A stretch of DNA of 64,000 bases from Pseudomonas guariconensis (GTDB taxonomy: Bacteria > Pseudomonadota > Gammaproteobacteria > Pseudomonadales > Pseudomonadaceae). Positions 21,783 through 61,650 of the stretch are shown here, in pieces. Every line of letters starts with the position of its first letter. Position 1 is the stretch's first letter. The notes below the pieces were generated by a model that did not search any database, was not told the origin of the DNA, and saw nothing but the letters and a program-made list of their open reading frames with translations. A program made the translations under genes and the position numbers. The DNA lies in NCBI RefSeq assembly GCF_900102675.1, contig NZ_FMYX01000003.1, positions 434,001 through 498,000 on the forward strand, read 5' to 3'.

Positions 21783-22760
21783 TCAGCGGCCTTGCAGCAG
21801 CTCGGCGGCCTGGTCGAAGATCGCCAGGGGCTCCGGGGCTTTGTGGATGTCCGCCGACAGCAGTTGGCGGAAGCGTCGGGCGCCAGGGAAACCCTGGCCC
21901 AGGCCGAGGATATGGCGGGTGATGTGATGCATGGCGCCGCCGCTTTGCAGATGCGCGACGATGTACGGGCGCAGCTTCTCCAGCGCCTCGCTGCGGCTGA
22001 CCACCGGGGCGGTGCTGCCGAACAGCTGCTGGTCCACTTCGGCCAGTAGGTAGGGGTTGTGGTAGGCCTCGCGGCCCAGCATCACGCCGTCGAAGGTCTG
22101 CAGGTGCGCATGGCATTCTTCCAACGTCTTGATACCGCCATTGAGCACCAGCTCCAGATCCGGAAAATCGGCCTTCAGTCGCGCAGCCACGTCATAGCGC
22201 AGCGGCGGAATTTCGCGGTTCTCCTTGGGCGACAGGCCTTCGAGGATGGCGATACGCGCATGCACGGTGAAGCTGCGGCAACCCGCGTCACGCACCTGAC
22301 CCACGAAATCGCACAGTTCGGCGTAGCTGTCACGGCCATTGATGCCGATGCGGTGCTTGACCGTGACCGGAATAGCCACCGCATCGCGCATGGCCTTGAC
22401 GCAATCGGCCACCAGCGCCGGATGCCCCATCAGGCAGGCACCGATCATGTTGTTCTGCACCCGGTCGCTCGGGCAGCCGACGTTGAGGTTCACCTCATCG
22501 TAGCCGGCATCCTCGGCCAGCCGCGCGCACGCCGCCAGCTCCGCCGGCACACTGCCGCCCAGCTGCAAGGCCAGCGGATGCTCTGTGTCGTCATGGCGCA
22601 GGAAGCGATGGGCATCGTTGTGCAGCAGCGCACCGGTGGTAACCATTTCGGTGTAGAGCAGGGCGTGCTTGGAGAGCAGGCGCAGGAAGAACCGGCAATG
22701 GCGATCGGTCCAGTCCATCATCGGTGCAACGCTGAAGCGGCGGGAGGGCTCAGGGCGCAT
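21783..22760 (-). CDS. dusA: tRNA-dihydrouridine(20/20a) synthase DusA; prophage inserted at its 5' end
   Basis: Flavoenzyme that reduces U20/U20a of tRNA. The TIM-barrel sequence starts MRPEPSRRFSVAPMMDWTDR, with the FMN-binding MMDWTD, NVGCPSDRVQ (catalytic Cys), VTVKHRIGI and NGGIKTL. I choose the ATG at 22760, which gives 325 residues; ATGs at 22793 and 22838 would lengthen it with sequence that is not conserved as far as I can recall and lies in the attachment zone. The phage integrase begins 135 bases upstream in the opposite direction, so the gene's native promoter has probably been replaced. The coding body appears intact, so the enzyme is probably still made. Confidence 0.93.
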   Translation of the reverse strand: MRPEPSRRFSVAPMMDWTDRHCRFFLRLLSKHALLYTEMVTTGALLHNDAHRFLRHDDTEHPLALQLGGSVPAELAACARLAEDAGYDEVNLNVGCPSDRVQNNMIGACLMGHPALVADCVKAMRDAVAIPVTVKHRIGINGRDSYAELCDFVGQVRDAGCRSFTVHARIAILEGLSPKENREIPPLRYDVAARLKADFPDLELVLNGGIKTLEECHAHLQTFDGVMLGREAYHNPYLLAEVDQQLFGSTAPVVSRSEALEKLRPYIVAHLQSGGAMHHITRHILGLGQGFPGARRFRQLLSADIHKAPEPLAIFDQAAELLQGR

Positions 22761-22793
22761 GGTTTCTGGCTTAGAGCCTGTTTTTACAGTCAT

Positions 22794-22894
22794 TTCGTTC
22801 AACGTGTTTTGTACCGATTTTCGGGGGTTTCGGGGCATTTTTACCAAGCGCTTGGTACAATGTACCAATCGAATCAGGACGTGTACCAACTCTC
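22794..22894. other. Candidate attachment region / integrase arm sites
   Basis: Between dusA and the integrase are a perfect 16-bp palindrome TACCAAGCGCTTGGTA (22842-22857), an overlapping inverted repeat TTGGTACA-A-TGTACCAA (22852-22868) and a further TGTACCAA at 22882-22889. These repeated TGTACCAA units suggest sites for the integrase or a directionality factor; the exact crossover core cannot be fixed without the right end. Confidence 0.5.
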
Positions 22895-24016
22895 ATGGCA
22901 ACCATCAGACCCCGCAAGAAGGCCGACGGCACCACCAGCTACACAGCTCAGATCCGCATCAACCGCGATAAGGTGACAGTTTACCAAGAGAGCCAGACGT
23001 TCGCCCGCAAACAGGCAGCGGTGGCCTGGGCGAAGCGACGGGAAACCGAGTTGGCAGAGCCTGGTGCAATCGAGCGAGCGAGTCGGTTAGGGCACACGAT
23101 CAAGCAGATGATCGACCGCTACCTGGTCGAGGCCGAGAAAGCCCGGCCGCTGGGCGAGACGAAGCGGCGCACGTTGAATGCCATCAAGAACAGCTACCTG
23201 GGTGAGAAGCTGGATTCTGATATCAGCCAACAGCTGCTGGTGGACTATGCCCTTTGGCGGATGAGTCCCGAAGGGGGAGGGATCAAGCCCCAGACGGCGG
23301 GCAATGACCTAGCGCACCTAGGCTCTGTATTGTCATTGGCCAGAGCAGCATGGGGGTATGAGATCAATCCGCAGGCAATGCCTGATGCACGGCTTGTGCT
23401 GAAGAAGTTCGGCTACAACATGCGGAGTCGGGAGCGAGACCGGCGGCCAGCATTGGAAGAATTAGATAAGGTGATGAAGCATTTCTTCGACATGCTGCAG
23501 CGGCGCCCCAGCGTAATTCACATGCCCAAGGTGGTTGCGTTTGCGATTTATTCCACGCGGCGGATGGACGAGATAACACGCATCCGTTGGGAGGATCTGG
23601 ACGAGCATCAGCAGGCCATAAAAGTCCGGGATATGAAAAACCCTGGTCAGAAGCTCGGGAACGATGTGTGGTGTTACTTGCCCGATGAGGCCTGGATTAT
23701 TGTGCAGAGTATGCCTCGGGACTGTGCCGAGATCTTCCCTTACAATACGGACTCAATCGGGACGGCTTGGTCCAAGGCGTGCAAGTTGACCGGCATCGAG
23801 GATCTGCACTTTCATGACTTGCGCCACGAAGGGGTGAGCCGGTTGTTTGAAATGGACTGGGATATACCGAGGGTGTCGAGCGTATCCGGACATCGCGATT
23901 GGAACTCGCTTCGCCGTTATACCCATTTGCGTGGGCGAGGGGATCGATACAAGGGGTGGGCGTGGCTAGATAAGATCATCCAAGCGCCGGTTAAACTCGG
24001 CGCCCGGGCTGAGTAG
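22895..24016 (+). CDS. int: Tyrosine recombinase (dusA-associated integrase), 373 aa
   Basis: Catalyses site-specific integration and excision. The catalytic set is visible: Arg222/Arg223 in STRRMDEITRIRW, His307-x-x-Arg310 in HDLRHEG, His333 in SGHRDW and the nucleophile Tyr342 in RRYTHL. The N-terminus (MATIRPRKKADGTTSYTAQI) is the Arm-DNA-binding type. The gene is immediately adjacent to dusA and reads away from it, the arrangement known for integrases that use the 5' end of dusA. ATG at 22895. Confidence 0.94.
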   Translation: MATIRPRKKADGTTSYTAQIRINRDKVTVYQESQTFARKQAAVAWAKRRETELAEPGAIERASRLGHTIKQMIDRYLVEAEKARPLGETKRRTLNAIKNSYLGEKLDSDISQQLLVDYALWRMSPEGGGIKPQTAGNDLAHLGSVLSLARAAWGYEINPQAMPDARLVLKKFGYNMRSRERDRRPALEELDKVMKHFFDMLQRRPSVIHMPKVVAFAIYSTRRMDEITRIRWEDLDEHQQAIKVRDMKNPGQKLGNDVWCYLPDEAWIIVQSMPRDCAEIFPYNTDSIGTAWSKACKLTGIEDLHFHDLRHEGVSRLFEMDWDIPRVSSVSGHRDWNSLRRYTHLRGRGDRYKGWAWLDKIIQAPVKLGARAE

Positions 24017-24154: not shown

Positions 24155-24850
24155 GTGAGTTCTGATTTCGATGAAGGCTCTTTCCCAAAAGCACGCGGGT
24201 GGCTGCTTGCATTCTCGTCCCTGCTCATTGCTCTATGGTTTTTTGGGGCGGACCTGAAAGCCGTTTCTGTGTTAGGCACCCAAATTGAGTTCAGAAGGAA
24301 TACCGAGCACATCTGGATCATCGCCTTTGCAATTAACGCCTATTTATTGTTGAGGTTTTATCAGCAACAGCCGGATGTATCATATTCCGGCTTGAAAGAA
24401 TACAAGAGCTATTATGCCGGTTATATGCGAAACACCATGCTTTGGCTTAATAGGCACTCAATTGAAAAAGAGGTGCTTGAGCGTGGCAAGGGAACTATCC
24501 ATTCTGTTTTAAAGAATGGAGTGAGCAAGTGCGTAATTGAAACCTCAGAGTACAAGCGCTTCACTGATCCATCCGAGAAGCGCAGGTACATCAGAGGTAT
24601 GAAAGATGTCCTGGTTACTCATGCTTATTGTGTAGTAACAGATGGGGAGGACGGTGGAGTCGCAACCACTGCAACTTACCAGGTTGACCGCGACTGTCCG
24701 TACTGGCTGATTTGTCTGTGTGTATGGCTCTCTATTATTAAGCTCTGGATCAAAACTTCGTATGCTACTGAGCACCTGTTGCCATATCTCTGGAGTGGAT
24801 TTGCAGCAGTGGTCTGCTTGCGTTGTTGGTTTGCTGTTTTGATCTCATAG
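24155..24850 (+). CDS. Membrane protein of unknown function, integrase-proximal (231 aa)
   Basis: I do not recognise the family. The protein has about four membrane helices: residues 14-32 (GWLLAFSSLLIALWFFG), 50-66, and two near the C-terminus (PYWLICLCVWLSIIKLW and LLPYLWSGFAAVVCLRCW). Between them lies a soluble loop of about 110 residues that is Lys/Tyr-rich. It starts at a GTG (VSSDFDEGSF). The DNA is markedly more AT-rich than the core genome. It is followed after 41 bases by a second membrane-anchored protein on the same strand, so the two may form an operon. The position next to the integrase is a common cargo site in temperate phages. Confidence 0.6.
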   Translation: MSSDFDEGSFPKARGWLLAFSSLLIALWFFGADLKAVSVLGTQIEFRRNTEHIWIIAFAINAYLLLRFYQQQPDVSYSGLKEYKSYYAGYMRNTMLWLNRHSIEKEVLERGKGTIHSVLKNGVSKCVIETSEYKRFTDPSEKRRYIRGMKDVLVTHAYCVVTDGEDGGVATTATYQVDRDCPYWLICLCVWLSIIKLWIKTSYATEHLLPYLWSGFAAVVCLRCWFAVLIS

Positions 24851-24891
24851 TATTTGGGCCGGAAATAGTTGGCCCGTTATTGGAAGGTATA

Positions 24892-25608
24892 ATGTCCATA
24901 AATAAATTTGCGCGATTTCGTAGGTCTCTGGAAAAAAATAAGATTTTTTTTGAGATCACTGCATCCTTGTTGATCGGAAGTGCTTCGCTTGCCGTGTCGT
25001 ACTCAGCCTTGAACCTTAATGACAAGATCTTAGCGGCTACGGAAGTTTCTGCGCTCCCGCACCTTTCAATTGGCTCGCGTGCTCGTATGGATAACGAAAC
25101 ACATAAATATTCTGAAGAGGAGCTGTTTTTATCAAACAATGGCGCGCCACTTACCAATCTTGACTGGCAGACCAAGACATTCGTTGTGATTGAAGGCTCT
25201 AACCTGCAACGTCCGTTCGTTTTATTGCCGGTCAATGGGTACTATTTTGTTCAGTTCACTACAAACAATGTTGTTGGAGAGCTTTCCTCTAAGGTTGGGC
25301 ATAAAAATTTGCAAAAATTTTCCAGTTTGTACCAAGAGGTTGTTGATCATAATAACTCGCAGTCAAATACTCTAGATTATTACTTTGCTAAAATTATCAC
25401 TGTGAGCAGGGTGGAGTATGAAGATCGGCTTGGTCGCCGCGACGTTGTCTATTTCCGTGATAACAAAAGAATCTCAGAGGAGTCTGCCAGAAGTATTTGG
25501 GATTACAATATTTCCGGGCGGATGCAAGATATTGACAATGTTCGACTTAAAGATTTGAAGGATGCTGCTGCAGCTCCCGGCGCGCTCGTGTTAGATGATT
25601 TGCCTTAG
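24892..25608 (+). CDS. Membrane-anchored protein of unknown function (238 aa)
   Basis: Not recognised. The protein begins MSINKFARFRRSLEKNKIFFE and has one hydrophobic stretch at about residues 20-40 (ITASLLIGSASLAVSYSAL), so it is probably anchored in the inner membrane with a large soluble C-terminal domain of about 195 residues. The ATG at 24892 follows GGAAGG, and lies 41 bases after the previous gene. The coding DNA is AT-rich, unlike the flanking integrase and core genes. With its neighbour it forms a compact two-gene cassette. Superinfection exclusion or defence is a guess from position and topology only. Confidence 0.6.
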   Translation: MSINKFARFRRSLEKNKIFFEITASLLIGSASLAVSYSALNLNDKILAATEVSALPHLSIGSRARMDNETHKYSEEELFLSNNGAPLTNLDWQTKTFVVIEGSNLQRPFVLLPVNGYYFVQFTTNNVVGELSSKVGHKNLQKFSSLYQEVVDHNNSQSNTLDYYFAKIITVSRVEYEDRLGRRDVVYFRDNKRISEESARSIWDYNISGRMQDIDNVRLKDLKDAAAAPGALVLDDLP

Positions 25609-28069: not shown

Positions 28070-28343
28070 AACGCTTGTCTTCCGGTGGTGTCGGAAGCTG
28101 CAGCGCGAGGCGTTCGGCCAGCCAAGGAACCCCGGCCTGCTTCACGCGGGTCGACTGGCTGTACTGCATGCCGGCTGTGGGGTGGTACCAGCTACCCTCT
28201 TTGGTCCGCAGGTACTCGCGGTCACGGGTGGGGTAGCGGGGCAGGTTCCCCTCGGTGAGTAGGTCGTGCTCGCGCATCCGGCTGATCAGTTCGGTGCGGC
28301 TGATGCCGAAATACTTCGCGGTCTGTGCAAGGGTGCGTTCCAT
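28059..28343 (-). CDS. Small phage DNA-binding protein, KilAC-like antirepressor domain (94 aa)
   Basis: MERTLAQTAKYFGISRTELISRMREHDLL reads as a helix-turn-helix, and KEGSWYHPTAGMQYSQSTRV resembles the C-terminal domain of KilA-C type antirepressors. Homologous short forms occur in Pseudomonas phages. An antirepressor that relieves CI control would fit its place in an early operon under the CI-like operator, but this is inference. ATG at 28343; 11-base overlap with the next gene. Confidence 0.65.
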   Translation of the reverse strand: MERTLAQTAKYFGISRTELISRMREHDLLTEGNLPRYPTRDREYLRTKEGSWYHPTAGMQYSQSTRVKQAGVPWLAERLALQLPTPPEDKRYAA

Positions 28344-28352
28344 GACTACTTC

Positions 28353-28664
28353 CTACGCTACGTTGGCGAGCACGGGCTCGGCCGGTGGCATGTCAGCGGT
28401 ATCCAGCTTGCCGTTGGCGATGGCCTCGAGGTGTGCCGCGATCTTTCTTGCGCTGCCGAGGTTGTTCGCGGGCACGGTCAGGCTGTTAACCGTGGAGCCC
28501 ATGCGGATCGTCACGGTGAGCTGGTCGAGATAGACCTCGGTCTGCAGGGTGGCCTTGGCACAGGTACCGTTCGCCTCGTCGCGGAGGATGTGGGTGAACT
28601 GCCCGGACATATTGGTCTGCGCCTTGAGGCAGGCAAAGGAGTTTTGGCTGAGTGCATAGCTCAT
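28353..28664 (-). CDS. Early phage protein of unknown function (103 aa)
   Basis: Begins MSYALSQNSFACLKAQTNMS at 28664, where its ATG overlaps the stop of the preceding gene (ATGA), which settles the start although the frame is open further upstream. The middle is beta-rich (EVYLDQLTVTIRMGSTVNSL), the end helical. No motif known to me. Second gene of the leftward early operon. Confidence 0.6.
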   Translation of the reverse strand: MSYALSQNSFACLKAQTNMSGQFTHILRDEANGTCAKATLQTEVYLDQLTVTIRMGSTVNSLTVPANNLGSARKIAAHLEAIANGKLDTADMPPAEPVLANVA

Positions 28665-28834
28665 GCTGCGTGCCCTCCGGTGCTCGGAGAGACTTGGCGG
28701 AATGCAGAAACAGATGGTGCTCGTTTGGTGGTGACAAACGCGCAGCCATGTTTTAGAGCTAAACGGCGGATCTCGAAGATGAGATCGGCGGTAGCTGCGG
28801 CCGGATGGACGTGCAGTGATGCTGTGGTGTGCAT
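28661..28834 (-). CDS. Small first gene of the leftward early operon (57 aa)
   Basis: MHTTASLHVHPAAATADLIF continues EIRRLALKHGCAFVTTKRAP and ends in HAA; the stop overlaps the next ATG. A short helical protein of a kind commonly found at this place in Pseudomonas prophages. It is directly downstream of the operator-promoter at 28870-28898, with GAGTGAGG before the start. Function unknown. Confidence 0.6.
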   Translation of the reverse strand: MHTTASLHVHPAAATADLIFEIRRLALKHGCAFVTTKRAPSVSAFRQVSPSTGGHAA

Positions 28835-28869
28835 GGTGTTGCCTCACTCTGTGGTGGAAGAGTGAGATA

Positions 28870-28898
28870 AATATCAACTGACGGTTGATATTAGTCAA
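28870..28898 (-). promoter_or_regulatory. Leftward early promoter with repressor operator
   Basis: On the minus strand TTGACT, 17 bases and GATATT form a sigma70 promoter. It is covered by the palindrome ATATCAAC-TGACG-GTTGATAT (28871-28891). The central 17 bases ATCAACTGACGGTTGAT recur exactly at 30943-30959 beside the repressor gene, so this is very likely the left operator. Confidence 0.8.
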
Positions 28899-28976
28899 GC
28901 CGTTGATGGGGCGTGGCGTCATGGCTGGCATTTTGGCATCATTTGTGGCCCCTGCGCCTCAAACCAAGGAGCCCTG

Positions 28977-30185
28977 ATGAAGGCCTACAGAACCGAGTAC
29001 CTCGCCATCATTGAGACCAAAGAGGATTTCTGTAGCACTGTTGAAGCCTTCAACTCCCTTCTTCAGGCTTATGGCAGCATTCAAACACTGCCAGATAAAG
29101 TCAAATATCTGGACTCAACTTTTGACTATTCCGTTCAAAAAGGAGGGGTGTCAGATAGTGGCCAGGTGTATTTTCATGTGAAATTTACTAGTAAAAAAGA
29201 AAATCTATCTGACTATAAGAAGTTTCTCCGTCTTGTGCGCACGATTTTGCAAAAGGTTAGTGTAAAAAACCCTGAAGTTATTTGGGATGATATAAGTAGC
29301 GAGCTCTGCGCAAAGGCTTACCCAGTTATTCATGAGCTTGAAAATTTAATGCGTAAACTTATTACTAAGTTTATGATTATTAGTATTGGTGCTTCATGGG
29401 TTAGCAGTGCAGTGCCTAAAGAAGTTTCCGATTCTGTGAAAGTGAAGAAAAGTCAGCAGACTATAATTTACGATGCCGACTTTATCCAGCTTGCTAATTT
29501 CTTGTTCAAGAAATACTCTACAGCGAACTCAGATAAGCTCTTAGCAAAGCTTTCAAAAGCTAATAGCATCAATGATGTTGACTTCAGTGAGCTGAAGGAG
29601 ATGATCCCCCAATCAAATTGGGAGCGATACTTTGTCCCGCTCGTTAATTGTAATAGCGATTACTTGGATGCCCGGTGGCGCAAGCTATACGACTTACGTT
29701 GTATTGTCGCGCACAATAATTTCCTGAGCCAAGATGAGTTCGACGAAATAATTAAAGTATCGGCTGAGGTTAAGGAAAAGCTTGATGAGGCTATCGCTGG
29801 TATCGATCAGCTGCATGTCTCTGACGTACAGAAAGAAGAAGTAGCAGAGAGTGTCGTAGGGACGGTTAGTCAACAGAATGCCGACTTTCTTGCGCTGTGG
29901 AACTCGGTTCTTGAGTTGATAGTTGATATTTTCAAACTATCTAAGATCGGTTTTGCGATCGATGGGAAAAATGTGGTGCCGGATCCTAAAATATGTATGC
30001 GTATGCTCAAAGATAGTGACGTCATTGAACAAGAAGTTTTTGACTGGTTCCATGATGTGAATATTTTTAGGAACGCATTAGTGCATGGTGCAGTTTTTAA
30101 CCCTCAAGAATACATTGAGACTTACATTAATGCTGCTCAAAATCTGCGGGAAGTCTTAATGAGTAAGTATATTGATTTATTATAA
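28977..30185 (+). CDS. AT-rich cargo gene with two HEPN-type RxxxxH motifs (402 aa)
   Basis: I do not recognise the exact family. Two segments carry the R-x4-H signature of HEPN ribonucleases in suitable helical surroundings: LRCIVAHNN (Arg241/His246) and FRNALVHGA (Arg365/His370). A third helical region near residues 105-130 resembles the first helix of a HEPN bundle (VIHELENLMRKLI). HEPN proteins are the toxic part of many toxin-antitoxin and abortive-infection systems. ATG at 28977 follows AAGGAG. The DNA is far more AT-rich than its neighbours, and the gene lies between the leftward operon and the repressor, transcribed towards the latter; a classic cargo position. No separate antitoxin gene is next to it. 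Confidence 0.6.
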   Translation: MKAYRTEYLAIIETKEDFCSTVEAFNSLLQAYGSIQTLPDKVKYLDSTFDYSVQKGGVSDSGQVYFHVKFTSKKENLSDYKKFLRLVRTILQKVSVKNPEVIWDDISSELCAKAYPVIHELENLMRKLITKFMIISIGASWVSSAVPKEVSDSVKVKKSQQTIIYDADFIQLANFLFKKYSTANSDKLLAKLSKANSINDVDFSELKEMIPQSNWERYFVPLVNCNSDYLDARWRKLYDLRCIVAHNNFLSQDEFDEIIKVSAEVKEKLDEAIAGIDQLHVSDVQKEEVAESVVGTVSQQNADFLALWNSVLELIVDIFKLSKIGFAIDGKNVVPDPKICMRMLKDSDVIEQEVFDWFHDVNIFRNALVHGAVFNPQEYIETYINAAQNLREVLMSKYIDLL

Positions 30186-30186
30186 T

Positions 30187-30894
30187 TTATTCAGGAATAA
30201 AAGCGCCCACAACGGTTCCGCAAATATGAGTTTCTTCAGTGATTTCTATAATCGGGTATTGCGGATTGATGGGGCGAAGAAATTTACGTCCGGCATCGGC
30301 TACAAGAACTTTGAATGTGGCTTCGTTTGTGCTTGTTAATCGAGCGATAACACGATCACCTGTTTTTGCTTCAATTTCAGGGTCTACAAAGATTATACAG
30401 CCTGCAGGGTAGCTACGACCTGGACCTGGGTTGGTCATGGAATCTCCATGCACCTTTAATGCATACCCGCTTCGACTAATAGGAACCGGACACGATAGCC
30501 ATGTATCCGCATGGTGAGGTTCAAAATTATTGATCACCTCGCACCAGGCGCCAGCCTTGACCCACGAAATTAAAGGAACCTTATGGTAGCGGTGCTGGAC
30601 ATCTGAAATATTGTTCAGTACTGAACTGGAGTTTATGCTTTTAGGCTGCACTCCATATTCAAGCCATTCACGTCTGACACCCAGCCAACTTGAAAGTGCG
30701 TCCAAGCTAATAGCTTCGGGTATCGCTTCAGCGTTCAGCCATTTGCTGACCGCTTGAGGTGTCTTCGCGACTCCCATCCTTTTCAACCGCGCAGCGACAT
30801 CCACACCTCTGCCCCGAATCCGGACATTCGCGTCGTTCAGAGCCTCATGTAAGCGAGCGGTGAACGCTCTACGTAGATCATTTTTGTCAACCAT
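30187..30894 (-). CDS. CI-like prophage repressor, self-cleaving S24 family (235 aa)
   Basis: Keeps the prophage dormant. The N-terminal helix-turn-helix is at about residues 30-60 (VAARLKRMGVAKTPQAVSKW). The C-terminal S24 peptidase has the cleavage dipeptide Ala114-Gly115 (VKAGAW), nucleophile Ser152 (HGDSMTNPG) and Lys195 (ATFKVLV), so RecA-stimulated autocleavage after DNA damage is expected. I take the ATG at 30894 (MVDKNDLRRAFTARLHEA); the frame is open upstream but that part overlaps the operators. Divergent from the Cro-like gene. It should bind ATCAACTGACGGTTGAT at both early promoters. Confidence 0.9.
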   Translation of the reverse strand: MVDKNDLRRAFTARLHEALNDANVRIRGRGVDVAARLKRMGVAKTPQAVSKWLNAEAIPEAISLDALSSWLGVRREWLEYGVQPKSINSSSVLNNISDVQHRYHKVPLISWVKAGAWCEVINNFEPHHADTWLSCPVPISRSGYALKVHGDSMTNPGPGRSYPAGCIIFVDPEIEAKTGDRVIARLTSTNEATFKVLVADAGRKFLRPINPQYPIIEITEETHICGTVVGAFIPE

Positions 30895-30926
30895 AGGTTG
30901 AGCTTCACACAAGGCTTGCGCAATAG

Positions 30927-30959
30927 TCAGTTGATTAGTAACATCAACTGACGGTTGAT
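30927..30959. promoter_or_regulatory. Right operator between repressor and Cro-like gene
   Basis: ATCAACTGACGGTTGAT at 30943-30959 is identical to the left operator. A further inverted repeat TCAGTTGAT-n7-ATCAACTGA (30927-30951) shares one arm with it, giving three half-sites. A rightward promoter TTGATT (30931-30936) with TTGATA (30955-30960), 18 bases apart, would be covered. Confidence 0.78.
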
Positions 30960-30972
30960 AATGGAGCGAAAA

Positions 30973-31236
30973 ATGGTGCTTAGGCCTGATCACTTCTCAA
31001 ATGCAATCGCCTACGCATTTGAGGCGGCAGGTGGCATCGGGGTTGCTGCAAAAGTTTGTGGCCGAAGTACTCAAGCGCTAAACAAATGGCGCTTGCTTGG
31101 AGCGCTACCTCGTACGGAATACACAGGTGAAACACGTTACGCGCGAAGTCTCGCAGAAGCTGCAAGAAAACTGGGAAACCACTTTGAGGAAGACTGGCTT
31201 CTAGAGGCTGGCTCTCGCAAAAGCCATGTGACTTGA
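30973..31236 (+). CDS. Cro-like regulator (87 aa)
   Basis: Small helix-turn-helix protein, MVLRPDHFSNAIAYAFEAAG with GGIGVAAKVCGRSTQALNKW as the DNA-binding helices, of the type found opposite CI-like repressors (YdaS/Cro-like). It should shut off the repressor after induction. GGAG lies 6 bases before the ATG at 30973; an ATG at 30961 is in frame but without a ribosome site and overlaps the promoter. First gene of the rightward early region. Confidence 0.8.
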   Translation: MVLRPDHFSNAIAYAFEAAGGIGVAAKVCGRSTQALNKWRLLGALPRTEYTGETRYARSLAEAARKLGNHFEEDWLLEAGSRKSHVT

Positions 31237-31555
31237 GAAGATACAGGCGGTCTTCGACCGCCCATCTCTCCCCCCATAGCATCACCACAATGCTGCAGGG
31301 CCGTACCAACGAGAAGCGAGCACACCACATGCAATCGCTTCCTTTCGGTGCGGACACCAGGCAGGAAGCCTGGAGGCCGCCATCTCCACCACAGATCAGG
31401 CGGCAGTTTTGCCAGGGGTAGTCGACGGATCGACACCCCGGCTTGGTGCCGGTATCCCTTTGGAGGTTTAACCGGCGTATGGCCTACTCATGCCACGCGG
31501 CAAATGTATCACCACGACACGCCGCTGGCACTGGCAACCTAAAAGGATTAATGCC
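31237..31555. other. Gap between Cro-like and CII-like genes
   Basis: A GGCGGTC-TTC-GACCGCC hairpin (31246-31262) lies just after the Cro-like stop without a T-tract; it could be a weak attenuator like tR1. A CCGGCTTGGTGCCGG hairpin occurs near 31438. Short open frames here lack convincing starts or content, so I see no gene. Confidence 0.4.
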
Positions 31556-32074: not shown

Positions 32075-32285
32075 TATCGCAGATATGGCGAATGACGTTG
32101 TTCAGCAGCGCCTGGAGGAGGCGCTTGCCGCTCGAGTGGCAGCGCCCGTGCGCGAATCCCGCATGGACTGCATCGATTGTGACGACCCAATCCCGGAGTC
32201 GCGCCGGGTAGCGGCCCGTGGCTGTGTGCGGTGTGGGGCCTGCCAGACCCTCCATGAGGATCGGAGGGCGCAGTATGCTCGATAA
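32067..32285 (+). CDS. TraR/DksA-like zinc-finger protein (72 aa)
   Basis: A short DksA/TraR-type protein with the four-cysteine zinc finger DCIDCDDPIPESRRVAARGC followed by VRCGAC. TraR-type proteins bind the secondary channel of RNA polymerase and change promoter choice without ppGpp. GTG start (VADIADMANDVVQQRLEEA) overlapping the previous gene; its own end overlaps the next by 11 bases. A DksA-like gene at the equivalent place is also known in R-pyocin clusters. Confidence 0.8.
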   Translation: MADIADMANDVVQQRLEEALAARVAAPVRESRMDCIDCDDPIPESRRVAARGCVRCGACQTLHEDRRAQYAR

Positions 32286-34491
32286 GGTACTCGACCAGCT
32301 GCACGACTACGGTCTGCAGCCCGATCAGCCCCTGATCTTCGGCAAACTGACCCGCTGCCGCACCCAGGATGACAAGGGTAAGGAAAAGAACGGCTGGTAT
32401 GTCCTGCATGAGCATATGACCGAGAAGGGGCAAACCCTGATCTTCGGCAGCTTCGGTGACTGGCGTCTCGGCGAAACGCAGAAGGTCAAGACCGACGGTC
32501 GCGGGCTGACCCCGGACGAGCGTGAAGTGATGCGCGCCCGGCAGGCCGACGCCAAGCGGCGGGCAGCGGAGATCGCTGCCAATGCGGCCCGTCGTGCGGC
32601 CTCACGTGCGGAAGCGTTGTTCAAGCGCATGCCTGAGAAGGGCCGGAGCGCCTACCTCGACCGCAAGCAAGTGGTCGGCTTCGGCGTTCGCTATGCACCG
32701 AAGACGGGCGCGGTTCTCGTCCCGATGCAGAATGCACAGAACGTCATCGTCGGCCTGCAGGTGATCTACCCGGAGGCCCAGGCGGACACCGGGCGCGACA
32801 AGTCCTACTGGCCGCATGGCATGGCGAAGGAGGGCGCGTTCCACATGATCGGTGGCCACCCTGAGCCTGGCGAGCCGGTGCTGGTGTGTGAGGGCTACGC
32901 CACCGGCGCTAGCCTGCACATGGCGACTTCCCAGGCGGTGGCCATCGCCTTCGACGCGGGCAACCTGATGGCGGTCGCCAAGCACATGCGCGAGCGCTTC
33001 CCGGGTCGGTCCATCATCATCTGCCGCGATGACGACTGGAAGACCAAGCGGCCCACGGGCGAGCCCTGGAATCCCGGCGAGGAAAAGGCCAACAATGCGG
33101 CGGTGGTGGTCGGCGGCCAAGTTGTCGGTCCGATCTTCTCCGGCGACCGCGAGGACAAGTGGACCGACTTCAACGACCTGCACTGCGCCGAAGGCCTCGA
33201 GGCGGTGCGTCGGCAGGTCACGGCGGTGATCAAGCCCCCGGCCACGGGGGGCTGGAAAGACATGCTGGCCAGGACCGAAAACGGCGCCCTCATCGCGCAC
33301 ATGCAGAACGTCGAGCTGATCCTGGCCAACGATGAGCGGTGGAGTGGGGTGATCGGCTACAACGCCTTCAGCTCGAAGATCATGCGCCTCCGTGCGGCGC
33401 CCTATGGAGGCGTGCCGGGAGAGTGGAGCGACATCGACGACATGCGTGTGATGAAGTGGCTGGCCCAGCAGGGTCTGCGCGTGAAAGCCTCCCACGTCGT
33501 CGAAGCGGTCAGCGTCGTTGCGCATGACAACGCCTTCCATCCGGTCTGCACCTACCTGGCCAAGCTCGAGTGGGATCGTGTGCCGCGCCTGGAGCGCTGG
33601 CTGCATGAGATATTCGGCGTCCCTCGGAACGAATACAGCGCCAAGGTTGGCAAGCGCTGGATGATCTCGGCGGTGGCCCGTGTGATGAAGCCCGGCTGCA
33701 AGGCGGATGCGGTGATGATTCTTGAGGGCGCGCAGGGCGCAGGTAAGTCGACAGCCCTGGGCATCCTCGGCGGCGAATGGTTCATGGACACGCCGTTCAC
33801 CTTGGGCGACAAGGACGCGTTCCAGGCGATCCGAGGCAAGTGGATCGTCGAGCTCGGCGAACTGGACAGTTTCAACAAGGCTGAGAGCACCAAGGCCAAG
33901 CAGTTCTTCTCGGCTTCAATCGACACCTACCGCGAAAGCTATGGGCGAAGAACGAGCGACGTGCCACGCCAGTGTGTTTTCGCGGGCACCACCAACCAAG
34001 ACGAATACCTAAAAGACGCCACCGGTAACCGGCGTTATTGGCCGGTCGCCTGCGTCAAGGTCGATCTGGAGGCGTTGCGCCGAGTCCGTGACCAGCTGTG
34101 GGCCGAGGCTATGTTCTGCTATCAGGCCGGTGACATTTGGTGGGTCACCCGTGAGGAAGAGGAACTGTTCACCAAGGAGCAGGAGGAGCGCTTCGTGGTG
34201 GATGAATGGGAAGGGCCGATCCTTGACTGGCTGGAGAAATCGCAGGTCGGTGAGACGGTTACCGGCAGTGAGGTGCTGGGTCAGGCGCTCAACCTAGATC
34301 CTGGCCACTGGGGCAAGCCCGAGCAGATGCGTGTGGGGTCGATCATGCACCGCCTGGGTTGGCGGCGTCGGCGGCTCGCCGCGCTGCCGAAGAGCGGCAA
34401 GCGCCCCTGGGCATACCAGAAGCCCGAGGGCTGGGGGCGCACCAGCGCCCTGGAGCAGCAGCCGCCAGTGCCGAAGGAGGACTGCTTTTGA
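32275..34491 (+). CDS. Phage primase/helicase: Toprim domain plus VapE-type ATPase (738 aa)
   Basis: The replication protein. The N-terminal half contains a Toprim primase-like domain with VLVCEGYATGASL and the acidic IICRDDDW; the second half is a virulence-associated E (VapE) superfamily 3-like ATPase with the P-loop ILEGAQGAGKSTAL, the acidic WIVELGELDSF and VFAGTTNQDEYLKDATGNRR. Start ATG 32275 follows GGAGGG. It is the only recognisable replication gene in this prophage, so origin melting and priming would depend on it together with host polymerase. The stop overlaps the TTG of the Q-like gene. Confidence 0.85.
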   Translation: MLDKVLDQLHDYGLQPDQPLIFGKLTRCRTQDDKGKEKNGWYVLHEHMTEKGQTLIFGSFGDWRLGETQKVKTDGRGLTPDEREVMRARQADAKRRAAEIAANAARRAASRAEALFKRMPEKGRSAYLDRKQVVGFGVRYAPKTGAVLVPMQNAQNVIVGLQVIYPEAQADTGRDKSYWPHGMAKEGAFHMIGGHPEPGEPVLVCEGYATGASLHMATSQAVAIAFDAGNLMAVAKHMRERFPGRSIIICRDDDWKTKRPTGEPWNPGEEKANNAAVVVGGQVVGPIFSGDREDKWTDFNDLHCAEGLEAVRRQVTAVIKPPATGGWKDMLARTENGALIAHMQNVELILANDERWSGVIGYNAFSSKIMRLRAAPYGGVPGEWSDIDDMRVMKWLAQQGLRVKASHVVEAVSVVAHDNAFHPVCTYLAKLEWDRVPRLERWLHEIFGVPRNEYSAKVGKRWMISAVARVMKPGCKADAVMILEGAQGAGKSTALGILGGEWFMDTPFTLGDKDAFQAIRGKWIVELGELDSFNKAESTKAKQFFSASIDTYRESYGRRTSDVPRQCVFAGTTNQDEYLKDATGNRRYWPVACVKVDLEALRRVRDQLWAEAMFCYQAGDIWWVTREEEELFTKEQEERFVVDEWEGPILDWLEKSQVGETVTGSEVLGQALNLDPGHWGKPEQMRVGSIMHRLGWRRRRLAALPKSGKRPWAYQKPEGWGRTSALEQQPPVPKEDCF

Positions 34492-35712: not shown

Positions 35713-35875
35713 CCGGCAGGGGGTGGGGGGCAGTGCTGCGGATTTTATGGGTCCTCCCCCTGGCCCGCCCCCTACACGGGTGCTGGAACTCTCAAACTGG
35801 CTCCATCTGAGATTGATCGCACCATGTCTGTCCTATTAAATTTCAGACTTCAGACCAACGAAGTCAGTGAACAAT

Positions 35876-36907
35876 ATGACCAAAGGCTCGATAGGCACAC
35901 TGAACGACATTCCATTCCTCAACCTGTCCCAAGCAGGTGGGAAATTTTGCAGTTCGCTAAATTTCTTTAAAGAAGGCGAGTGGAGGATTTGGCTTTCCTT
36001 GGGTGACGGGCGCTTTGTCGAAACCTATGGCTGGCCAGCAGAGGGGTGTTATTTTGGTGACGCCGCCCAGCAAGAAACTGATGTGTATTTGCATTTTATG
36101 GATTTTATAGCTCAGAAAGCGAGTTATGAAGAAGTCAGTAAGCCATTTCTCGGCTTGCATGATGATTTATGTAATCTATCAGCGAGTTTGGCTAAGATTT
36201 CCCATATTCATAAAACTAAGGATGTACTTGGTGTCGGCGATTCGCGAATGGTGGTAACGGAGGTCGAGTATTTTTTCTCCGTCTGTCGGAGCATGATTGA
36301 TCTATTTCAAGAGATAGCTTGCAAGCTGTGGAACAAATTGACTATTTATGTTGATTACCTTCCAGAGAAAAAAAACCTTCGTAACTCATTTCGCGAAATG
36401 GTTTGGTACAAGGATCGTTTGACCACGAAAGAGGAGTTGCAGTCTCGGTTTGGTTTGCCAGAGCCTTGGGCTGACTTCTATCTCAGGCATGCCGATTTTT
36501 TTCTTCAGATCAGAAAGTTTAGAGATAACATTGTTCATAATGGCTCTCAGGTTCAAACTATTTTCTCTGGTGAGAGTGGTTATCTTGTGAATCTGAACTT
36601 TAAGCCATTCGGTGATGTGAAAGTTTGGCGCGAGTCAGATAAGGTGAAAAACGATTTAGTACCTTTGATGCCGGCGCTTGGAATGATTGCTTTCATGACC
36701 CTACTCGTCTGTGAGGATTTTTCAGAGATGATGCAGCGTACGTTCGAATTTCCTGAGCCCATTGTTCCCGGTATGAGGTTGTTTACTCGTGGTTTCTTTG
36801 ATGAGCATTTTGTAGCGGTTCTTGGAGATGCCCGAGATCGATACGTTGAGTTTTACCAAGGCGGGGTCGAAAGTGAAGGTATTAAAGCGGCCCCGTCGCT
36901 TCAATAG
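35876..36907 (+). CDS. Second AT-rich cargo gene with a HEPN-type motif (343 aa)
   Basis: Not recognised as a named family. One R-x4-H motif of the HEPN type is present, FRDNIVHNGS (Arg216/His221), inside a helical region (LRHADFFLQIRKFRDN), and an earlier helix around residues 130-150 (VCRSMIDLFQEIACKLW) resembles the first half of the bundle. The start is uncertain: GTG at 35867 or ATG at 35876, neither with a clear ribosome site. The DNA is AT-rich, in contrast with the holin and terminase genes on either side. It is unlike the first HEPN-motif gene in sequence. A cargo gene for defence is likely from position and motif. Confidence 0.55.
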   Translation: MTKGSIGTLNDIPFLNLSQAGGKFCSSLNFFKEGEWRIWLSLGDGRFVETYGWPAEGCYFGDAAQQETDVYLHFMDFIAQKASYEEVSKPFLGLHDDLCNLSASLAKISHIHKTKDVLGVGDSRMVVTEVEYFFSVCRSMIDLFQEIACKLWNKLTIYVDYLPEKKNLRNSFREMVWYKDRLTTKEELQSRFGLPEPWADFYLRHADFFLQIRKFRDNIVHNGSQVQTIFSGESGYLVNLNFKPFGDVKVWRESDKVKNDLVPLMPALGMIAFMTLLVCEDFSEMMQRTFEFPEPIVPGMRLFTRGFFDEHFVAVLGDARDRYVEFYQGGVESEGIKAAPSLQ

Positions 36908-60297: not shown

Positions 60298-61650
60298 TTA
60301 AGGCCTTATAATGTCCTGTATGAAATCATTTTCTTGTTTCCATTTTGCTCTCACTGCAGAAGAGTGAGCCTTGCGTAGGTCGCAGGGTTGATCCTCAGGG
60401 AAAATAAAACCGCCTACTCGCTTATCGGTAGGGCCGTTATAAGTCATTAAGAAGCTGCAATACTCCTCAAAAATATCATCTGCGTTCATTAGCCAGCAGC
60501 CTAATGTTTCTGAGCTGCGCTTGCTAATTTCAAGCGTCCTGCTTTCTTCTTCAGTTAGATTGCCTTTGGAAAAATAAGTTCTATAGGTCTGTTCGGCTAT
60601 TGAAAAGGCGTATCGAATAGCTTCTTTCCATTCGGCTAAACTTTGAATGTGGCCCTTTCTTTGATAGGAGTTAGAGGTGTTGATGTAGCCTTCGTAATAC
60701 GGCCTGCCCATTATGTCTGATATGTCAATCGACCACGGGCAACGTTGGCCGAGGCTATTGCTAAATTTTGGATTTGGTTTATTAGGTTCTTTAGATGAGT
60801 TTTGTGCGGATAGCTTTCCGTTTGTATAGTGGACTTTTTTTGTTTCTCCGTCGGGTGTGCGAAGTATTCCGTTTCCATGGGGTTCGTCGTTTTTAAAATT
60901 GCCTGTGTATGACGATCCGTCTTTCCACGTTAATTCTCCAGGGCCGGCGAATGAATCGTTTTTCAGATTGCCTACATAAATTCTGCCATCTGCGAATTTA
61001 TAGGTGCCCTTTCCATTCATTTTATCGTTTTTCCATTCTCCTTGGTACGACTCTTTACCCCCCGGCCAACGCATAATTCCCTGTCCGTTGAGCTTTCCGT
61101 TGACCATATAGCCTTCGTAAACTCGCCCATCTGGAAAACGATAGACGCCTTTCCCATTGATTAAACCGTTTTTCCATTCCCCCTCGTATGACTGATCCGG
61201 CCATGTCATTTTTCCATGGCCCTCGGGCTCTCCCTTTTGCAGGTCGCCCTCATAGATTCCCCCGTCGTCATATCTATATACTCCTCTGCCGTTTATTCCT
61301 CCTGAGGCAAATTCGCCCGTGTAGGAGGTATTAAGGGCTGGCCATTGAATTGACCCGCGGCCGCTTAGCTCTCCAGCAAGCACGTAACCTTCGTATGTGA
61401 AAATTACATGATTGCCTTTTTTTGCTGTTAGTAAACCTTTTCCATCGATGAAATTATTAAGGCATGCCCCGGTCCAGGTTAGTATTAGGCCAGCAGGGGG
61501 AGAGTTCTCAAGGTTCACAGCTTTTGATACGAGGCATCGGTTAGATGTATAAAGATCTTTAGCGTAAGATTGTTGATGAACTAGATTGGAGATGGCGAGA
61601 GTAAATGCGATGGTTATAATTTTATGGTTTTTAATTTCAGTGTGTTTCAT
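60298..61650 (-). CDS. Secreted MORN-repeat protein, AT-rich cargo gene (450 aa)
   Basis: The N-terminus has a signal peptide (about residues 1-31, IITIAFTLAISNLVHQQSYA), so the protein is exported. Residues about 85-275 are eight tandem MORN repeats, each with Y-x-G at one end and G-x-G about ten residues on, for example YEGEWKNGLINGKGVYRF and YEGYMVNGKLNGQGIMRW. The C-terminal 150 residues (from QRCPWSIDISDIMGRPYYEG) form a separate domain with four cysteines. No enzyme motif is visible. MORN repeats usually bind lipids or proteins. It is on the strand opposite the lysis genes and AT-rich, a typical lysogenic-conversion cargo place after the lysis cassette. Confidence 0.78.
   Translation of the reverse strand: MKHTEIKNHKIITIAFTLAISNLVHQQSYAKDLYTSNRCLVSKAVNLENSPPAGLILTWTGACLNNFIDGKGLLTAKKGNHVIFTYEGYVLAGELSGRGSIQWPALNTSYTGEFASGGINGRGVYRYDDGGIYEGDLQKGEPEGHGKMTWPDQSYEGEWKNGLINGKGVYRFPDGRVYEGYMVNGKLNGQGIMRWPGGKESYQGEWKNDKMNGKGTYKFADGRIYVGNLKNDSFAGPGELTWKDGSSYTGNFKNDEPHGNGILRTPDGETKKVHYTNGKLSAQNSSKEPNKPNPKFSNSLGQRCPWSIDISDIMGRPYYEGYINTSNSYQRKGHIQSLAEWKEAIRYAFSIAEQTYRTYFSKGNLTEEESRTLEISKRSSETLGCWLMNADDIFEEYCSFLMTYNGPTDKRVGGFIFPEDQPCDLRKAHSSAVRAKWKQENDFIQDIIRP

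Follow-up and report, generated by a model that had tools for sequence, protein, structure and literature searches.

The systems that most resemble the locus analysed here come from prophages, abortive infection and toxin modules. Tha, a HEPN RNase encoded by an S. aureus prophage, is described in the available text as a tail-activated anti-phage protein with an RNSIMH motif, whose H270A mutant lost protection (PMC11087260). In lambdoid phages, lambda rexAB and bstA follow cI in cI's own direction, and the available descriptions treat this cI-adjoining interval as one in which defence genes are swapped (PMC8585504, PMC12894663). Stand-alone HEPN genes inside BREX loci are reported as backup effectors in a 2026 survey (PMC12839542), and DefensePredictor is reported to have yielded 31 validated systems, four of them HEPN (PMC13092281).

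The gene considered here belongs to a prophage in a 64,000-nucleotide stretch of the Pseudomonas guariconensis genome (the window). Compared by description rather than by sequence, it shares with Tha the single prophage gene, the cI region and the HEPN RxxxxH motif. As far as the available text on Tha goes, that protein has one C-terminal HEPN domain and its gene is part of the cI operon together with ith, an antisense inhibitor gene, whereas the window protein has two HEPN domains and is itself encoded antisense to cI. The profiles of the PADLOC candidate PDC-M34B match all 31 family members scanned, the window protein included (E 3e-12); the two models that match the latter are 192 and 147 positions long, and the stretches that score best fall within the first HEPN domain (HEPN1) only. 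The ‘M’ of PDC-M34B presumably marks a multi-gene candidate, whereas no partner was seen around the HEPN gene. HEPN1 aligns best with PbAbiF (8vz6_A, Z 7.9 over 142 residues) and matches Pfam HEPN_Swt1, which places it near the AbiF or Abi2-Swt1 class. AbiF is said, in the title of structure 8vz6, to work with a non-coding RNA, whereas no RNA family was found by Rfam at the HEPN locus (28300-31300). The second domain (HEPN2) shares its fold and RNxxxH motif with HepT of HepT-MntA; in contrast to that system, no MntA-like neighbour was seen, and HEPN2 is fused behind another HEPN domain.

The double-HEPN prophage gene is a real defence candidate. We consider it likely that it encodes a single-gene anti-phage effector of the HEPN RNase superfamily, a putative RNase functionally like Tha; its probable role is to defend the host cell against other viruses.

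The double-HEPN gene and its predicted protein

A preliminary description, made from the DNA alone, had proposed a 402-residue, AT-rich cargo protein with two HEPN-type motifs, encoded beside the prophage repressor. The reading frame, which starts with ATG and is open throughout, was recovered at the same coordinates and length, and both motifs (RCIVAH and RNALVH) lie at the residues it had given (Table 1). The gene is indeed AT-rich, with a GC content of 0.40 (0.42 at third positions) against 0.608 for the window and against a third-position GC of 0.82 in the primase-like gene of the same region, and its neighbour is a Peptidase_S24 protein. It is present as a single copy in the source genome. 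The prophage that holds it starts beside a dusA-like ORF, and its terminase-portal genes are similar to those in 17 phage records, of which 14 are Pseudomonas phages, the matches listed having approximately 71% DNA identity.

Table 1. Coordinates of the double-HEPN gene, its domains and the features around it, in window positions unless a locus is named.
Feature	Position	Strand	Basis or remark
dusA-like ORF	21783..22889	-	named by eye
Prophage integrase gene	22895..24016	+	
ORF with start MHTTASLHVHP	28661..28834	-	conserved in related loci, by eye
Leftward-operon promoter-like site TTGACT-17-GATATT	28870..28898	-	9/12 matches; palindrome between hexamers
Operator-like palindrome ATCAACTGACGGTTGAT, putative O_L, left edge of cargo slot	28873..28889	.	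exact 17-bp palindrome
Exchangeable cassette	28908..30186	.	related-phage homology stops at about 28907 and resumes at cI stop
AAGGAG, likely ribosome-binding site	28966..28971	+	by eye; 5 bases upstream of ATG
Double-HEPN protein gene (PDC-M34B family)	28977..30185	+	ORF, 402 aa
N-terminal alpha/beta domain, residues 1-104, ferredoxin-like	28977..29288	+	AF2 model, structure comparison
HEPN1, residues 105-292, Swt1/AbiF-like	29289..29852	+	Pfam, AF2 model, structure comparison
Motif 1, R241-CIVA-H246	29697..29714	+	R and H in 36/36 aligned members
HEPN2, residues 299-401, HepT-like	29871..30179	+	Pfam, AF2 model, structure comparison
Motif 2, R365-NALV-H370	30069..30086	+	aligned R....H in 23/36 members
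Prophage repressor ORF (S24 peptidase type, cI)	30187..30993	-	convergent with HEPN gene
Second exact copy of 17-bp palindrome, putative O_R	30943..30959	.	49 bp before likely cI start
Primase-like gene	32218..34491		named by eye
DzbB-like slot cargo of L073	L073:5752..7041		HEPN-like RCKIVH; weak PADLOC DzbB match, 3e-8
E. coli H15 homologue, WP_063109269.1	L084:8676..10001		prophage member

AlphaFold2 (AF2) models were obtained with a pLDDT of 83 for the full length and 81 for HEPN1 alone. They agree with the helical setting that had been proposed for both motifs: helix 227-245 holds R241 close to its end and is directly followed by H246, and R365 and H370 lie at the end of helix 352-370. 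Structure comparison of HEPN2 gave HepT chains in four of the first five rows, with Z between 9.0 and 8.7, the best being 6m6w_B (Z 9.0, rmsd 2.8, 97 residues). For HEPN1, PbAbiF was followed by the HEPN protein 2hsb (Z 7.8), HI0074 (1jog, 7.0), which we take to have the HEPN fold, and a HEPN toxin (8xdj, 6.7); all rows stayed below a Z of 8, and for helical bundles values under about 13 are not decisive. Residues 1-104 came out as ferredoxin-like alongside many unrelated rows. Foldseek found no match at E ≤ 0.001 for the models, those of HEPN1 and HEPN2 included. In sequence searches for solved relatives, the HEPN1 profile matched only GCN4 fusion chains (from E 0.033) and the whole protein only a beta-glucosidase (E 0.49).

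At E up to 0.1, Pfam HEPN_Swt1 (PF18731) matched 27 of 31 members (best E 1.6e-7) and HepT-like 11 of 31. The window protein itself scored 20.6 bits against HEPN_Swt1 (E 5.5e-4), below the curated cut-off of 27.5 that one homologue, L007, passes with 28.2, and only 14.2 bits (E 0.16) when the whole genome was searched; it is also under the Pfam HepT-like cut-off. An NCBIfam scan of the Nostoc homologue gave 12.8 bits for the HepT equivalog NF047751, against a cut-off of 60, and returned no HEPN family. The residue after the catalytic Arg of HEPN domains is usually polar, and HEPN1 here has Cys at this place. The HEPN assignment is therefore drawn from motif conservation, family profiles and structure alignments taken together, and on these the second motif falls in a HEPN-like domain and the first probably does so too, HEPN proteins heading both structure lists and the HEPN_Swt1 matches in 27 of 31 members supporting the first. 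Of the two families named for comparison in the preliminary description, HEPN1 is nearest the Swt1 (Swt1/AbiF) type and not ApeA.

Homologues and their genomic contexts

A search with the window protein alone returned its own record among viral contigs and two plasmid homologues, and no close relative in genome contigs, phages or 397 other genomes sampled across the phylum. As the single-sequence search had fallen short, the wider family was collected with a three-row profile, which gave 26 loci in genome contigs, 6 further viral contigs and 2 more genomes of the same genus. Family members thus occur in 3 of 298 same-genus genomes, the source genome counted, and the E. coli form in 5 of 5426 genomes, with near-identical copies counted as one. 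They are spread over no fewer than seven bacterial phyla, or eight if Atribacterota is added on the strength of the frameshifted locus L023, and sit in chromosomes, plasmids, prophages and BREX loci. The alignment comprised 36 proteins, the window's included, and two frameshifted loci were excluded from it; a weak Carnobacterium plasmid match (25% identity over half the query) was excluded from the family.

Conservation of the motif residues among homologues had been set as a test of the HEPN reading. R241 and H246, the putative catalytic pair of HEPN1, are invariant in all 31 rows at 22-46% identity to the window protein and remain so when five more are added, and every aligned member likewise has E122, N123 and R126, which lie in the first helix of HEPN1. 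Judged by this conservation, the motif is more than a chance occurrence. The second pair aligns in 23 of the 36. The other 13 end early, have a degenerate motif (L011), are truncated where the contig stops (L016) or have a different C-terminus, so a double site is not essential across the family. Two HEPN domains in one protein, as originally proposed, are supported for the window protein, and the second domain is not universal among its relatives. The residue after R241 also varies: RC is found in 23 of 23 rows with HEPN2 and RN in 7 of 12 without it (Fisher p 1e-4, L016 excluded). Cys242 was nevertheless dropped as a mark of HEPN2, since the tree gives just 1-3 independent pairs.

The member in the E. 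coli prophage retains the N-terminal domain and HEPN1 (RNKVAH), and has a different C-terminus in place of HEPN2. This prophage is P2-type, as classed from annotation, and the gene lies between the tail-fibre-assembly and tail-sheath genes, which we take to be the site of the P2 fun/Z moron. The constant core of N-terminal domain and HEPN1 with a changing C-terminus, as read from these sequences, is new here; the family was not found under the names searched in the literature, the term PDC-M34 included, a comparison outside which DefensePredictor's four HEPN systems lie. Such a pattern could also arise if HEPN1 were a non-nuclease core that senses RNA or nucleotides and the C-terminal domain an exchangeable effector. 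The variable C-terminus would fit this, with the HEPN2 motif in 23 of 36 members and the E. coli member weakly matching an AHJR-like REase (E 0.0057, under the cut-off), as would the history of HEPN2, whose presence requires at least six changes on the tree, three of them forced by well-supported branches. However, the retention of R241 and H246 in every member is what would be expected of a catalyst, and several members have no recognisable second nuclease; we regard this alternative as unlikely.

Several homologues lie in defence or repressor contexts. On the Nostoc plasmid pNsp_c the gene is inside a BREX operon, between brxC and pglX, and in a Clostridia locus (L029) matches to PglZ, PglX and BrxL lie upstream, the only other BREX match among the loci then compared. 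In L037 the homologue is directly behind a repressor gene (Phage_CI_repr), which touches it, and in L022 it is directly behind a related repressor gene.

Neighbours were clustered from ORFs of at least 90 aa within 7 kb of the gene in the 36 homologous loci. Among the 40 largest clusters listed, none of non-phage neighbours reached more than 2 of the 36 loci. Apart from the family itself, the largest was that of a primase-like phage gene (5 loci), those with three loci all came from the close phages L032-L034, and those with two include, by eye, a Dam-like methylase (L004, L019) and a large helicase-like protein (L023, L029). Within this scope the absence of an obvious antitoxin holds beyond the window, and the lack of a recurring partner fits the self-contained effector that had been suggested. 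In two Bacillota loci a small related protein directly follows the homologue (95 aa, L018:11229-11516; 109 aa, L020:11139-11468), with cysteine pairs that by eye are arranged as in zinc ribbons.

These neighbourhoods bear on whether the protein could instead be the toxin of a TA module that maintains the prophage in the population, its antitoxin being unrecognised. HEPN toxins are described as common TA effectors (PMC3710099), HEPN2 resembles HepT, a toxin neutralised by MntA, an antitoxin shorter than 90 aa would escape the clustering, and L018 and L020 have the small protein directly behind the gene. Against this, the clusters listed hold no non-phage neighbour shared by more than two loci, the phage genes that flank the HEPN gene also occur in relatives that have no HEPN gene, and the Rfam scan of 28300-31300 gave no family at gathering level (best E 4.9). 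We consider a TA toxin very unlikely, and a self-contained effector remains our preferred reading.

The interval between the putative O_L and cI

The HEPN gene fills the interval between a putative O_L and cI, the position of lambda rexAB, and is convergent with cI, with 1 bp between the two stop codons. cI probably starts at the ATG at 30894, as in the ORFs of L032-L034, and a looser copy of the palindrome (30886-30902) overlaps this likely start codon. With at most one mismatch, the palindrome is present both at the left edge of the slot and around the cI start in all 21 loci that have both flanks, which do not count as independent because these phages are related. The two exact copies are read as putative operators, O_L and O_R, that the repressor would bind. 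Promoter-like sites number 6 in the region against 4.5 in shuffled sequence, so that the site between 28870 and 28898 is weak alone. The leftward operon probably begins at the ORF starting MHTTASLHVHP, and not at 28931, since related loci share that start. In the window, neither a terminator between the HEPN gene and cI nor a rightward consensus promoter just upstream of the HEPN gene was found; as the gene is also antisense to cI, its expression in the lysogen is only putative.

Related loci were taken from 24 genomes with a repressor match, less the source genome and five short matches below 50 bits, leaving 18 in the same genus. The interval is empty in two of these (L069, L072) and holds other cargo in 16: PD-T4-10_B-like with DUF4917 (L066), Lamassu (L067), a HIT protein with a second, hydrophobic-looking protein (L068, L079), DUF2971 (L070), a DzbB-like protein (L073), KAP/PDC-S20 (L074), NACHT (L075, L082 and, by 74% identity to L082, L080), Septu (L076), SIR2 (L081), DUF2806 (L078, L083) and proteins of no family (L071, L077). 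L080 has no left flank, lying beside a dusA-like ORF by eye, and was counted for cargo and excluded for operators. The cargo of L079 is 66% identical to that of L068, and the cargo of L083 37% to that of L078. A HEPN gene occupies the same place in three viral contigs (L032-L034). The HIT-plus-hydrophobic, DUF2806 and family-less proteins share the slot with known defence systems.

PADLOC matched the cargo of 8 of 13 scanned loci (L079, L083 and L080 were left out, L080 from the Pfam scan as well, and for L067 and L068 the second protein was covered by Pfam alone) and no model in the other five. Of 10 further prophage proteins from the window, a hand-picked and non-random set, the same scan matched none, and it matched none of 4 other AT-rich window proteins. 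Over the 20 cargo loci (the window, L032-L034 and the 16 others), the interval has a GC content of 0.38-0.44 in 19; in the exception, L080, the stretch includes other DNA. The cargo beside cI reads toward cI in 19 of the 20 loci, L076 being reversed, and these 19 end between 14 bp inside and 66 bp short of the cI stop.

Because the lambdoid cI-n interval is already described, in the available text, as a mosaic hotspot (PMC8585504), the O_L-cI slot is a known kind of place. The arrangement differs from that of rexAB and bstA in that its cargo, the HEPN gene included, faces cI in nearly all loci; a cargo slot convergent with cI is new here, and a description of the slot for the present phage group was not found in the literature searched. 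The 16 other cargo loci make the slot of these phages a ready place to look for defence candidates. The proposal that the HEPN gene is late-acquired cargo is strongly supported by the way in which related phages exchange the O_L-cI interval as a cassette. Between the window and L032-L034, identity is 45-47% for the HEPN protein, about 70% for cI and 37-39% for a flank gene; faster divergence of the HEPN cargo is not claimed, the flank gene being lower still.

The same neighbourhood could be taken to mean that the protein is an RNase of phage development, either adjusting the choice between lysis and lysogeny by way of its convergent overlap with cI or serving host takeover in the lytic cycle, and the adjoining operator-like palindrome and the 1 bp that separates the gene from cI would suit such a role. 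However, since the slot is empty in two relatives and filled with unrelated cargo in 16 more, the gene is dispensable for these phages, and homologues exist outside phages, for example in a BREX operon. We consider a role in phage development highly unlikely.

Possible mode of action and other AT-rich genes

Under the preferred reading, that of a single-gene anti-phage effector, the N-terminal alpha/beta domain and the Swt1/AbiF-type HEPN1 would form the conserved core, and the HepT-type HEPN2 fused behind it would give each chain two RxxxxH half-sites. These half-sites could form a complete HEPN active cleft, either inside a single chain or across two of them. The protein would be kept quiet in the lysogen until a product or effect of an infecting phage switched it on, whereupon it would cut RNA and stop phage production, probably at the cell's cost. 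What the sequences document directly is the architecture, the conservation of the putative catalytic residues, the exchange of cargo in the slot and the company of defence genes; that the protein is an RNase, its trigger, its composite site and abortive infection are inferred from HEPN relatives such as Tha.

A more elaborate reading makes the protein a modular platform, in which the N-terminal domain and HEPN1 would sense a phage signal and drive an exchangeable C-terminal effector, which may be another HEPN, a restriction-like nuclease or something else. The unlike HEPN domains of the HEPN2 form would make up one asymmetric, single-chain RNase site, Cas13-like with no guide RNA. Head-on transcription against cI would set the dose, and the level of defence would therefore be tied to the lysogenic state. 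Taken jointly, these proposals appear rather doubtful. The dual-HEPN chain offers a simple test of whether unlike HEPN domains form one active site outside CRISPR.

The same prophage has a second AT-rich gene with a HEPN-type RxxxxH motif, RDNIVH (35867-36907, +; GC 0.44, 346 aa), for which Pfam and PADLOC scans gave no match. It has no counterpart in L032 and L034, since less than 200 bp lie there between the matches to its neighbours. Between the integrase gene and the leftward operon are two AT-rich ORFs with hydrophobic stretches (24155-25608, +) and no family match; this region is possibly another cargo site. Further along the window, a 450-aa AT-rich protein (60298-61650, -) contains six MORN repeats.
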